From: Denitrovibrio acetiphilus DSM 12809
GTDB taxonomy: Bacteria; Chrysiogenota; Deferribacteres; Deferribacterales; Geovibrionaceae
Length of the DNA stretch: 64,000 nt
NCBI RefSeq assembly: GCF_000025725.1
Contig: NC_013943.1
Coordinates: forward strand, 1,736,001 to 1,800,000
Direction of reading: 5' to 3'
How positions within the stretch are numbered: position 1 is the first letter of the stretch; each line of letters opens with the position of its first letter. The notes below the pieces were generated by a model. It searched no databases and was not told where the DNA came from. It worked only from the letters and a program-made list of their open reading frames with translations. Shown here in pieces: positions 36,997 to 41,849 of the stretch. Made by a program: the position numbers and the translations under genes.

Positions 36997-38403
36997 TTAA
37001 TTATCGTAGTACATGAAAAATTCGTATGGGTGAGGTCTGGAGTTAAGACCGGAAATCTCATCCCTTTTCCACTCAACCCAGCTTGCGATAACATCTTCAG
37101 TGAAAACGTCCCCTTTAAGAAGGAAATCGTGATCTTTCTCAAGAGCATTGATAGCCTGCTCAAGAGAAGACGGCATCTGCGGGATAGATGAAAGTTCAAT
37201 AGGATCAAGATCATAAAGGTTTTTATCCATAGGCTCGCCCGGATCAATTTTGTTTTGTATCCCGTCAAGACCAGCCATCATCATAACAGTAAAAGCTAAG
37301 TATGGGTTAGCCATGGGATCCGGAAACCTTACTTCAACACGCTTAGCCTTTGGTGAAGGACTGTACATAGGGATTCTGAGTGAAGCTGATCTGTTTCTTG
37401 AAGAGTAAGCAAGAGAAACAGGAGCCTCAAACCCAGGAACAAGTCTTTTATAAGAGTTTGTTGTTGGGTTTGTGAAAGCGGCAATAGTATGTGCATGCTT
37501 AATGATACCACCGATGTAGTATAAAGCCATTTCGCTCATACCTGCATATTCTTCACCAGCAAAGAGAGGCTGACCGTCTTTCCAGAGTGACTGGTGCACG
37601 TGCATACCGGAACCGTTGTCCTCGAAAAGCGGCTTAGGCATAAAAGTAGCTGATTTGCCATATTTACAGGCTGTATTTTTAACGATGTATTTAAATGTCT
37701 GGAGATCATCAGCCATGCTGATCATATCGTTAAATCTCATATCAATCTCACACTGACCGCCGGAAGCAACTTCATGGTGAGAGTTTTCGATATAAAGCCC
37801 CTGCTCTTCCATTGTCATAACCATTTCGTTACGAAGGTTAAAAAGGGAATCAAGCGGTGGAACCGGAAAGTATCCTTCTTTAGGTCTGATCTTATAACCG
37901 AGGTTATGTCCCTCAGCACCGGTGTTCCAGTTGCCTTCTTCTGTATCGACTACATAGTATGAAGAGTTTTTTGTAGTATCATACTGAATGTTATCAAATA
38001 TGAAAAATTCAGCTTCAGGACCAAAAAAAGCAGTATCTGCAATACCTGTTGACTGAAGATATTTGATAGCTTTTGCAGCTATATTTCTAGGATCTTTTGT
38101 GTAACGCTCTTTGCTGATAGGGTCAAAGATATTACAGATCATATATGCAGTAGGAATCTCAGTATATGGATCCATTTTTATTGTAGCAGGATCAGGGAGC
38201 ATGATCATGTCAGAGTTATTAATAGCCTGCCATCCTCTGATGGAAGAACCGTCGAAACCAAGACCATCTTCAAATATGTCTTCTGTTATTTCGTGAGCAG
38301 GAACTGTTGTGTGCTGCCACTGTCCGAGAAAGTCTGAAAATCTGAAGTCAACGAGCTTTGCGCCCTTTTCTTCGATAAATTTGATTGCTTCTTTAGCTGT
38401 CAT
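36997..38403 (-). CDS. glnA: Glutamine synthetase type I
   Basis: A 468-aa GSI that forms glutamine from glutamate, ammonia and ATP as a dodecamer. Motifs: [12 protein letters not shown] near 48-59, the [10 protein letters not shown] metal site, [12 protein letters not shown]-like [14 protein letters not shown], and the ATP site [26 protein letters not shown] near 395 contains the Tyr that GlnE adenylylates in GSI-beta enzymes. GGAGG lies 4 nt before the ATG. It lies 40 nt after glnB and is probably co-transcribed from the sigma-54-type promoter. It pairs with the glutamate synthase genes at 13-18 kb for ammonium assimilation. Confidence 0.97.
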
Positions 38404-38443
38404 GTCGCCTCCTAAAAAATAACATTTTTTTTATCGTAAACTT

Positions 38444-38848
<405 letters not shown>

Positions 38849-38906: not shown

Positions 38907-39581
38907 TTATTTTTTAGGCAAAACTATTTTAACGAGCTCAATTCTCTTTTTTATATCTTCTGTATTTTGTCCCATTTTTTCTTTGGCAAGCTTAATAATG
39001 ATGAGATCTCTCAGTATATTAAGACTCCAACCGTTAAATCTGTCTATCACAATTGCAGCCTCTGAGAGTTTTTCAGACTTTGCTGGGTCGGTCACAATAT
39101 AATCAATAGCGGCTCTTCTCATAAGCCTTGTTCTTGTATAATCCGGAAAGTCACTGTCACCGGAAAGACTAACTATCTTTTCTGTATCTGCTTCTGCGGT
39201 ATAGTAATAAGGCTCCGGCAAAAGACTTTTCTCATAACTTTTACCCAGCAAGAATTTTATTGTTTCCCCTTCCGCAGTGCATGCTCCAAGTGATGCAAAC
39301 TCTGAAGCTTTCTCAAGGGCAGCAAGATCTTCTCCCGCTTCGTCAAGAACATACCGTCCTATGTATATCCGTGAAAGGTTGCACATAGCATCCATCCTGA
39401 GAAACTGCTCTTCAGCATCATGAAACGCTCTTTCGGCTAGCCTCGCCTTACCCGACAGGTAATAATTTACAAAATTATTATATAATTTGTTTCCATATAT
39501 GAAGTCCGGAGACTGAGCCGGTTTACTCGCACAAGCCCCCAGCAAAACTGCAAATAAAATCATCACCGTTATTTTTTTCAT
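38907..39581 (-). CDS. Lipoprotein of the mla-like operon, function unknown
   Basis: A 224-aa predicted lipoprotein (lipobox GAC, Cys17). The body is helical with alternating Leu/Ala/Glu that looks TPR-like (RLAERAFHDAEEQFLRMDAM). In other Mla systems a lipoprotein or MlaC-type protein ends the operon; this protein is not MlaC by any motif I see. Its ATG overlaps the stop of the MlaD-like gene in ATGA. It may join the lipid transport complex from the outer-membrane side. Confidence 0.7.
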   Translation of the reverse strand: MKKITVMILFAVLLGACASKPAQSPDFIYGNKLYNNFVNYYLSGKARLAERAFHDAEEQFLRMDAMCNLSRIYIGRYVLDEAGEDLAALEKASEFASLGACTAEGETIKFLLGKSYEKSLLPEPYYYTAEADTEKIVSLSGDSDFPDYTRTRLMRRAAIDYIVTDPAKSEKLSEAAIVIDRFNGWSLNILRDLIIIKLAKEKMGQNTEDIKKRIELVKIVLPKK

Positions 39582-40585
39582 GGCAGTTTCACCTTCTCTC
39601 CTGTCTTCTCGCCTGTTCCATCATTAAACGGCCACTTCTCTTCAAGGTTAAGCAATATCCTGTTTGTAGTATTTAGTATTTCATCTGTCTGTTCACGAAG
39701 ATCAATCAGGTTGGTTGTGGTCTCCGCAACATCAGCGGTAATTTTATTTGTATTATCAAGTGTAGGCTGAATCTTAGTGACAGATTCATCAATATTTTTC
39801 GCAAGATCACCAATTTTCTCTGCCCCCTCTTTGACTGCAATCAACCCTTTATCAAAATTCTGAAGCACGGGCTGGCTTTCATCCACACGATCATTCACAG
39901 CGATTGTAATCTTCTCAACATTGTTTTCTATAATCTTAATTTTATCAATAATCTGTTGTATCTCATTTTTCAGGTAATCGGTTCGAGCAAGATATCCCAG
40001 AGACCCCTGCTTGTTATTAATGTCTGCCCCCAGAGCTCCCACACCGTCAAGCAGTTCTTCGATTTTAGGTCGTTTTTCAGATATGCTGGTGGTGACACCA
40101 GATATATTAGAAAGGATACTGCGTATGTCGTCAATCATAGGTTCGACTTTTACAAGAATGTCTGTAATAGCCTTCTCTCGAGTGAGCTGATAGGTATGCC
40201 CATCGTCAATATCAGGATCAGAATATGTACCGCCGGAAAGAACGAGCGCATTAGCCCCTATGACTCCCTGAGCCTGTATCTTTGCTTCTGAGTCAGCCTT
40301 TATCCATTTCGTATATTTTTCAGGAATATTAGCCCTCAACTCCACCATACCGTCGTCGCGCAGCTCTATTTTATGAACCTTTGCAAGCTGAAATCCTGAA
40401 TACATAACAGGCATGCTTTTAGACAGCCCTTCACCTGATGCCGCAATAAACACCACATGCACTTTCCTTGTAAAAACATCCTGAGTTACAAGGAAGCCGA
40501 CAATCATTACAGCTATCATTATGATAGTCAGAAAGATGAAAAAACCAACTTTTATCTCTAGATTCCTAAATCTTGGGTCACCCAT
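39578..40585 (-). CDS. mlaD: MlaD-like MCE-domain lipid transport protein
   Basis: A 335-aa inner-membrane protein: one N-terminal transmembrane helix (about 14-35), an MCE domain (about 40-120; VVFIAASGEGLSKSMPVMYSG and ANALVLSGG), then a long helical region (150-320) with coiled-coil spacing. MCE proteins form hexameric rings that pass phospholipids between membranes. The C-terminal extension is longer than in E. coli MlaD (about 183 aa) and could form a needle as in PqiB/YebT types. It overlaps the upstream gene by 28 nt. Confidence 0.88.
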   Translation of the reverse strand: MGDPRFRNLEIKVGFFIFLTIIMIAVMIVGFLVTQDVFTRKVHVVFIAASGEGLSKSMPVMYSGFQLAKVHKIELRDDGMVELRANIPEKYTKWIKADSEAKIQAQGVIGANALVLSGGTYSDPDIDDGHTYQLTREKAITDILVKVEPMIDDIRSILSNISGVTTSISEKRPKIEELLDGVGALGADINNKQGSLGYLARTDYLKNEIQQIIDKIKIIENNVEKITIAVNDRVDESQPVLQNFDKGLIAVKEGAEKIGDLAKNIDESVTKIQPTLDNTNKITADVAETTTNLIDLREQTDEILNTTNRILLNLEEKWPFNDGTGEKTGEKVKLP

Positions 40586-41076
40586 TTATTAAAATCCTTC
40601 TCTATATAGTCAGTAGAGTTACTAAAAAGCTGTCTGTTAGACTCGTGCTCGATAATAACCGATTTTTCCAGTTCTTCACAGCGTAAAAATTCATGGAACT
40701 GCTCTTCGTACTCTGCAACATACATTCTTCTGGGGCTGAGAAACACGATCCATTCCGGGCAAAGGTAGCGAACCTGAAGGTATTTGACAATTAGTTTTTC
40801 AAAATCATCCAGCTGGTTGCTTCTGGAATCAGCATGATGCTCAAGGTGAAAACGCTTCAGATCAGACATAACCAGCTTCATCCCCTCTTTATAAGACATA
40901 TTATGGTGATAATATGCTGCTATCAGTATATTTTCTGCAACTGAAAGATTCCCTATAATGGGGACCAGATTTGAAACAATTCCTATTTTTGTTTTATCGG
41001 CATAATTAAGTAAGATATGAAACCACTCATTTTTTCTTACCGTATTGGGGTAGTATATAAGATAATTATAACTCAT
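40558..41076 (-). CDS. Degenerate ABC ATPase-like protein in MlaF position
   Basis: A 172-aa cytoplasmic protein between mlaE and mlaD, where the ATPase MlaF is normally encoded. Residues 31-52 (IGIVSNLVPIIGNLSVAENI) resemble the Q-loop region of ABC ATPases. Residues 88-115 (NQLDDFEKLIVKYLQVRY, CPEWIVFLSP) align with the LSGGQ, ARAL and Walker B stretch, and VIIEHES (140-146) with the H-loop. Yet there is no Walker A, no LSGGQ, and the Walker B DE is replaced by SP. It is about 80 aa shorter than MlaF, missing its N-terminal third. Probably it cannot hydrolyse ATP. The overlaps with both neighbours (4 and 28 nt) argue for an intact, translated gene. Confidence 0.65.
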   Translation of the reverse strand: MSYNYLIYYPNTVRKNEWFHILLNYADKTKIGIVSNLVPIIGNLSVAENILIAAYYHHNMSYKEGMKLVMSDLKRFHLEHHADSRSNQLDDFEKLIVKYLQVRYLCPEWIVFLSPRRMYVAEYEEQFHEFLRCEELEKSVIIEHESNRQLFSNSTDYIEKDFNKWVTQDLGI

Positions 41077-41849
41077 ATTAATGCCCCTAATACTTCCACA
41101 AAGATTAAGGCATAAAAGACCCTAAGCATACCTTTAAGAAGTGCAATAGGTATTTCCGTTACAGAATTATGTACTTGCAGAGCGCTAAAGATGGGAAGTG
41201 ACATTAAAAAATAACCAAGCAGAACGATCTTCATTAGAAAAACCAATACTATTTTAAAATTAAATGCGTCAAAAATAGTCTGCATTAGAAAACCAAATGA
41301 TATGTTCAAATTAAAGCTAAGGATCATGTAGCCGCCAAGTAAGGAAATGTAAACAAAAATAGTAGCAAGAGCCCCTGTACATACGATACCAGAGGCTATT
41401 CGGGGAATATAAAGGTAAATGAAAGGATTGATCGACAAGGAACGGAGAGTGTCTATCTCATTGTTCATCTTCATCAGGGCAATTTCGGCAGTTACCGCAG
41501 TAGAAGACCGAAGCACAAGCAGGATCGCTGCGACCATTGGAGCAAGATGCTTTATTGTCACAAGCACGAGCACATCCCCCACTCTATCCTGCGCTCCGAA
41601 CTGCACCATAAATTTCGTCAAACCACCAACCAAAGCTAGTCCTATCACAATTGACACCACAGAGAACATAGGTAGTATCTGCACCCCTGTGAAGTATATC
41701 TGTCTGAAAAAAACAAGCTTCACGGAGGGGTTCAGAAGATGACGATTAAAACACCCTTTTATAAATTTTCTGGTGAATCCGAGATACCCGTAATAAAATA
41801 CGGAATTATCTATTGCCCACCTGCCTAGTCTGTGTATTATTTGCTTCAT
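41073..41849 (-). CDS. mlaE: MlaE-like permease
   Basis: A 258-aa inner-membrane protein of the MlaE/YrbE family with an amphipathic N-terminal helix and five or six hydrophobic segments. The family signature is present as LRSSTAVTAEIALMKMNNEIDTL (first part LRSSTAVTAEIA), which contacts the ATPase and forms the lipid path. First gene of the operon, divergent from nifJ. Its stop overlaps the next ATG. A functional MlaF is not encoded in this operon. Confidence 0.9.
   Translation of the reverse strand: MKQIIHRLGRWAIDNSVFYYGYLGFTRKFIKGCFNRHLLNPSVKLVFFRQIYFTGVQILPMFSVVSIVIGLALVGGLTKFMVQFGAQDRVGDVLVLVTIKHLAPMVAAILLVLRSSTAVTAEIALMKMNNEIDTLRSLSINPFIYLYIPRIASGIVCTGALATIFVYISLLGGYMILSFNLNISFGFLMQTIFDAFNFKIVLVFLMKIVLLGYFLMSLPIFSALQVHNSVTEIPIALLKGMLRVFYALIFVEVLGALI

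Follow-up and report, generated by a model that had tools for sequence, protein, structure and literature searches.

An mla-type operon of Denitrovibrio acetiphilus DSM 12809 carries, in the slot of the ATPase gene mlaF, a short gene, psF (pseudo-MlaF), whose product is probably a pseudo-nucleotide-binding domain (pseudo-NBD) derived from MlaF that now acts as a structural subunit of an MCE transporter without power from an ATPase of its own. ATP-driven NBD dimers are the defining feature of ABC transporters, in which degenerate sites are known, usually in one of the pair; here, the operon's NBD is dead, all of its motifs being lost, yet it is under selection across phyla, and intermediate stages are extant. 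No report of a Walker-A-less MlaF or of a pseudo-NBD MCE system was found in the literature searched, which largely excludes subscription journals and preprints; a conserved pseudo-NBD in an MCE system of the Mla type is apparently unreported. The window analysed is a stretch of 64,000 nucleotides (G000:C1:1736001-1800000) of a genome that consists of a single contig of 3,222,077 bases, and coordinates below are those of the window unless a contig is named.

The psF gene and the loss of its nucleotide motifs

The psF gene (40558..41076, minus strand) is an open reading frame with an ATG start that encodes a 172-aa ABC-domain core without nucleotide motifs, with overlaps of 4 nt (mlaE') and 28 nt (mlaD'). 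An earlier note on this DNA had described an open frame of this length with these overlaps, lacking Walker A and LSGGQ and having SP for DE at Walker B; its coordinates and overlaps were reproduced, and the losses are evident in an alignment with the canonical MlaF of the same genome, which served as the reference for the motif comparison. At Walker A, GPSGTGKS of MlaF corresponds to YPNTV preceded by three gap positions, and alignment with canonical MlaFs places the site of the lost loop at psF residues 9-15 (YPNTVRK; 41032..41052, minus strand). At the Q-loop, ILFQN has become IVSNL with loss of the Gln, and the ABC signature LSGGM is replaced by LDDFE (residues 89-96, LDDFEKLI; 40789..40812, minus strand), a position that reads L-x-x-F/Y-E/Q in most family members. 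Walker B and the D-loop, ILYDEPTTGLD in MlaF, align with IVFLSPRRMYV, in which residues 110-116 (IVFLSPR; 40729..40749, minus strand) stand in place of Walker B without its D and E, and the D-loop is gone. H144 of psF lies near the H-loop position of the switch His, which is N, Y or another residue in most relatives.

The Walker A pattern GxxGxGK(S/T) is missing from all 36 aligned members of the family, P39, N49 and Y56 are invariant across the same 36 sequences, lengths stay within 162-178 aa across the phylum, and, with few exceptions, the start codon lies at the end of mlaE'. Pairwise dN/dS is 0.035-0.20 for the psF family and 0.03-0.11 for mlaE', ratios which are approximate because dS approaches or exceeds 1 for several pairs, all of the ratios being far below 1. 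A frameshift or deletion artefact was ruled out, given the equal length and slot in 36 sequences from different genomes. In a Denitrovibrio MAG (G018; L005 = L100, G018:C12:137380-137889), psF has a stop codon after residue 142 beyond which the homology runs on, compatible with both a sequencing error and a recent truncation.

Predicted fold of psF

Searched as a single sequence, psF gave no Pfam match at E<=10, its matches being to NCBIfam ABC models (E 0.05-0.1) and to LptB in the PDB (E 0.36). A profile built from its relatives and widened in two rounds finds the MlaF of the genome at E 7.8e-23. Since that profile had been widened, one made from the curated psF family (alignment A1; 36 members, no MlaF included) was also tried alone, and it reaches solved ABC ATPases, the best being MacB at E 3.2e-10. 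Aligning the psF family with 21 canonical MlaFs in hhalign gave a match (95.8%, E 7.5e-9) that extends from just before the Q-loop to past Walker B.

An AlphaFold2 model of psF computed with A1 has a pLDDT of 91.4 and a pTM of 0.88, and its top Foldseek matches are ABC NBDs. A VIA comparison superimposes residues 1-164 of the model on residues 32-223 of the E. coli MlaF chain of 6xbd (Z 14.9, rmsd 2.8 over 161 residues), showing that the N-terminal beta-strands and the C-terminal tail of MlaF are missing. The P-loop is gone from psF, as is part of the beta-subdomain; the strand and helix that ordinarily lie on the two sides of this loop are predicted to be made by the first ~25 residues. No STAS fold was seen among the Pfam matches, though psF as a single sequence matched nothing at E<=10, and the matches of the structural model are ABC domains. 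As modelled, psF is thus an ABC nucleotide-binding-domain fold from which all ATP-handling motifs have been lost, and a structure unlike an ABC domain, the outcome that would have counted against the earlier note, was not obtained. However, other ABC domains match the model equally well or slightly better than MlaF does, so that the fold indicates an ABC domain, while the assignment to MlaF comes from gene position and the tree.

A conserved segment expected to face the permease

Mean column conservation in the short pseudo-MlaF is lower than in canonical MlaF at each site involved in handling ATP: 0.29 versus 0.75 for Walker A with its helix, 0.48 versus 0.69 for the Q-loop, 0.52 versus 0.82 for the signature, 0.41 versus 0.74 for Walker B and the D-loop, and 0.36 versus 0.55 for the H-loop. 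The segment after the Q-loop (NLSVxENIxLPxxYH), by comparison, scores 0.63 in the short form and 0.62 in the canonical one. In psF, it corresponds to residues 39-57 (PIIGNLSVAENILIAAYYH; 40906..40962, minus strand), picked out by column conservation as the expected receiver of the MlaE coupling helix. In ABC transporters, the groove that receives the coupling helix is formed in part by this segment. In MlaFEDB of E. coli, the contact between MlaE and MlaF is mediated by the MlaE coupling helix between TM2 and TM3 (PMC7790496). This pattern of conservation speaks for psF as a docking subunit, which may sit on the cytoplasmic face of MlaE', in a transporter that would not be driven by its own ATPase.

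The operon and the other MCE systems of the genome

The gene order is mlaE'-psF-mlaD'-lipoprotein gene, and the operon is an Mla-type MCE system, with both an MlaE-family permease and an MCE-domain protein present. The divergent MlaE permease gene mlaE' (41073..41849, minus strand) matches PF02405 at E 3.5e-44; the AlphaFold2 model of its product (pLDDT 78) matches MlaE of 6xbd at Z 27 and Mce1 YrbE of 8fed at Z 28. The coupling-helix region is kept, its motif being TEQxDAL in canonical MlaE and nxEIxxL in MlaE'; GGAEGVG, the cytoplasmic loop between TM4 and TM5 of canonical MlaE, is replaced. In the conservation of MlaE', no new conserved acidic residue stands out as a candidate for proton coupling. 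The mlaD' gene (39578..40585, minus strand) encodes a single MCE domain (residues 41-117; PF02470, E 6.4e-9) followed by a predicted helical or coiled-coil tail, for which there are weak matches of the coiled-coil type. It is overlapped by 4 nt by the fourth gene (38907..39581, minus strand), which encodes a predicted lipoprotein that is possibly TPR/BamD-like (weak BamD match); homologues lie downstream of mlaD' in Deferribacterota, Thiobacillus, Sulfuriferula and some Desulfobacterota. Further downstream, glnB and glnA follow the lipoprotein gene in several Deferribacterota genera (window 36997-38794; L102, L107, L108, L109). Among the ORFs of the psF operon, aligned for motifs, no active MlaF-type ATPase is encoded, and no mlaB was seen in either mla operon of the genome.

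The second of these is a canonical mlaE-mlaF-mlaD operon located separately at 1454-1457 kb, which holds the only canonical MlaF of the genome (G000:C1:1455674-1456429). The canonical MlaD is 545 aa long (L099 2023..3660, G000:C1:1454022-1455659), and its C-terminal region resembles an outer-membrane beta-barrel by eye; a long MlaD of similar description is known from Veillonella (PMC10665443). A third MCE system is represented by a LetB/YebT-like frame of 1007 aa in which the MCE domain is matched seven times (G000:C1:219941-222619).

Distribution and decay series

Among 51 Deferribacterota genomes searched, psF adjoins mlaE' in all 38 that bear MlaE', always in the slot between mlaE' and mlaD', whereas the 13 without MlaE' have no psF and gave generic ABC matches only. 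A wider survey, with the MlaE' permease as scan query and a search of 297 Desulfobacterota-type genomes, found related loci in Desulfobacterota, Nitrospirota, Thiobacillus, Sulfuriferula, Sideroxydans and Zetaproteobacteria, with slot proteins lacking the motifs in Desulfobacterota, Nitrospirota, Thiobacillus/Sulfuriferula and Zetaproteobacteria.

The slot proteins form a series. In one group (L169, L175, L217, L219, L222, L228, L232), Walker A is present, the signature is altered and the switch His is gone; members of a second (e.g., L137, L155, L226, L236 and Zetaproteobacteria) have the full length but no proper P-loop; a third, the short form like psF of the window, is found in Deferribacterota, in L209-L216 (Desulfobacterota) and in Thiobacillus and its relatives. 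A tree of 121 permeases groups the canonical MlaEs in a single clade (100/100), and none of the 91 slot proteins outside that clade has an intact motif set, although sampling followed similarity to MlaE', so that an intact member may exist elsewhere. The slot proteins of L168 and L172 were assigned by hand before the tree was made, and the exact tree positions of the long branches (L153, L137, L208, Zetaproteobacteria and G004/G005) are unsure. The series suggests that the signature and H-loop would have been altered first, the P-loop lost next and the N-terminal subdomain last, a direction that follows from placing the root by taking the canonical side as the functional state. Each of ten outgroup genomes tested has one to three further MlaEs, and in nine of them, an intact-motif MlaF lies beside one of these (canonical) MlaEs.

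Two small genomes of the same class (L031 in G005, L065 in G004) have an extremely divergent MlaE' (branch length 6.2) together with a pseudo-MlaF. Three Pseudomonadota homologues of MlaE' (L118, L119, L164) have no recognisable pseudo-MlaF downstream and are nested among Thiobacillus-type rows having one, and three MlaE'-like permeases (L220, L225, L234) have neither an adjoining NBD-like gene nor mlaD and are flanked by a metallo-beta-lactamase-fold gene and a fructose-bisphosphatase gene. Because these six lack a psF neighbour, the subunit is not always kept.

According to the earlier note, the MlaF slot holds a pseudo-ABC ATPase whose gene has not decayed, and both views are supported by the ABC fold, conservation across the phylum and purifying selection. 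It had proposed looking for the same short protein in relatives, where it recurs in every MlaE'-bearing Deferribacterota genome; a full-length MlaF there would have pointed to a local deletion in the window, and no sampled relative with a permease of the MlaE' kind has a fully intact MlaF in the slot.

Proposed mechanism and alternatives

We propose that psF descends from MlaF, that it would have lost both ATP binding and hydrolysis, and that it is retained because docking on its own permease, MlaE', would persist. The operon products may form a second MCE-type lipid conduit of the cell, in which MlaE' would be the inner-membrane gate, the MlaD' ring and its helical tail would span the periplasm, and the lipoprotein would be the outer-membrane partner of MlaD'. 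As a structural stand-in for MlaF, psF would cap and stabilise the MlaE' dimer via the coupling helix, and lipid movement could be passive, gradient-driven or driven from elsewhere, with no ATPase belonging to the system itself. Physical docking on MlaE', the conduit architecture, the independence from ATP and lipid as the substrate are all parts that we infer. That an NBD can matter for assembly is seen in mycobacteria, where the Mce1 and Mce4 complexes are stabilised by the ATPase MceG; however, with Walker B mutants of MceG, this stabilisation also failed, and MceG thus offers no direct precedent for a dead NBD that stabilises a permease (PMC9947336).

The main rival to a docked psF is that the canonical MlaF also serves MlaE', so that transport would still run on ATP, with psF as an accessory that either displaces MlaF or regulates it. 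The single full MlaF, encoded with canonical MlaE and MlaD in a separate operon, could in principle act on MlaE', intact MlaFs likewise accompany canonical MlaEs in most of the outgroup genomes, and MceG sets a precedent as one ATPase common to several mycobacterial Mce systems (PMC9947336). We nevertheless regard such sharing as rather unlikely, as psF occupies the MlaF place with the permease-facing segment kept and would therefore compete with MlaF for the same site, while the altered coupling-helix motif and the loss of the GGAEGVG loop in MlaE' argue for a private partner. A composite ATP site is built from the P-loop of one subunit and the signature of the other, of which psF has neither, so that both sites of a mixed MlaF-psF dimer would be incomplete. 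On this anatomical ground, the asymmetric dimer with a true MlaF that the earlier note had considered is disfavoured, and a version of it with one working site was rejected.

An adaptor role, in which psF would be a free, MlaB-like regulator of MlaE' or of another transporter and not a docked NBD substitute, would suit a short soluble protein in an mla operon, the more so as neither mla operon has a visible mlaB, but we think it quite improbable: the predicted fold is that of an ABC domain, the conserved segment is the permease-facing one, and the decay series ties psF to full-length NBDs at the same gene position. That psF is a remnant gene nearing loss seems very improbable despite the stop codon in the G018 homologue and the MlaE' homologues without psF, in view of the narrow length range, the low dN/dS, the invariant residues and the orderly overlapping genes. 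Equally slight is the chance that psF binds another ligand (a nucleotide or metabolite) at a rebuilt site and so gates the permease; the alpha/beta core is kept, and some columns at the old signature position are conserved, such as L-N-x-F/Y-E, but the old site has no conserved charged cluster, and Walker A conservation is down to 0.29.

Returning to the docked, structural psF, dead-NBD relatives in at least four phyla, in which the docking surface is kept, suggest a family of ABC-style lipid transporters that run off no ATPase of their own. A whole MCE clade with ABC-type permeases in at least four phyla may even have abandoned ATP, the remains of the ATPase being kept only as a structural cap, a wider proposal that we advance tentatively and would stop short of calling probable. 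If true, a primary active ABC transporter would have turned, in nature, into a conduit without power from its own ATPase. The retention of a dead NBD makes two questions testable, namely, whether lipid can move along an MCE bridge when no ATP is hydrolysed and what a permease gains from an NBD besides ATP. Surveys that call MlaF by synteny or profile may miscount energised Mla systems; a published survey acknowledges uncertain MlaF annotations (PMC10665443).

Comparison with known systems

The psF system resembles MlaFEDB of E. coli in its slot beside mlaE and mlaD, the ABC-domain core, the conserved post-Q-loop segment and the MlaE-fold permease. However, psF lacks the Walker A, signature, Walker B D/E, D-loop and Q-loop Gln of E. 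coli MlaF, and its operon has a TPR-like lipoprotein gene and neither mlaB nor mlaC. The Brucella Mpc system (MpcE, MpcF, MpcD and MpcA; PMC12436622) is alike in having four genes for a permease, an NBD, a long MlaD and a lipoprotein, MpcD (331 aa) being close in length to MlaD' (335 aa). Three differences stand out: MpcF, a homologue of MlaF, is reported to be an ABC ATPase, whereas psF is a dead NBD; MpcE has a fused STAS domain, unlike the psF system; and MpcA is PqiC-like, whereas the lipoprotein of the psF operon has no such match.

PqiABC and LetAB share with the psF system the character of MCE systems without an ATPase (PMC12436622). The PqiA and LetA systems, however, have no ATPase at all, whereas the psF system combines a dead NBD with a permease that is MlaE-type, and not PqiA/LetA-type, by PF02405 and by its structure match. 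Finally, mycobacterial Mce1 and Mce4 (PMC9947336) are similar in that any active ATPase would be encoded elsewhere, and MlaE' matches YrbE at Z 28, whereas no NBD-like pseudo-subunit has been described in Mce operons, and MceG has full motifs.
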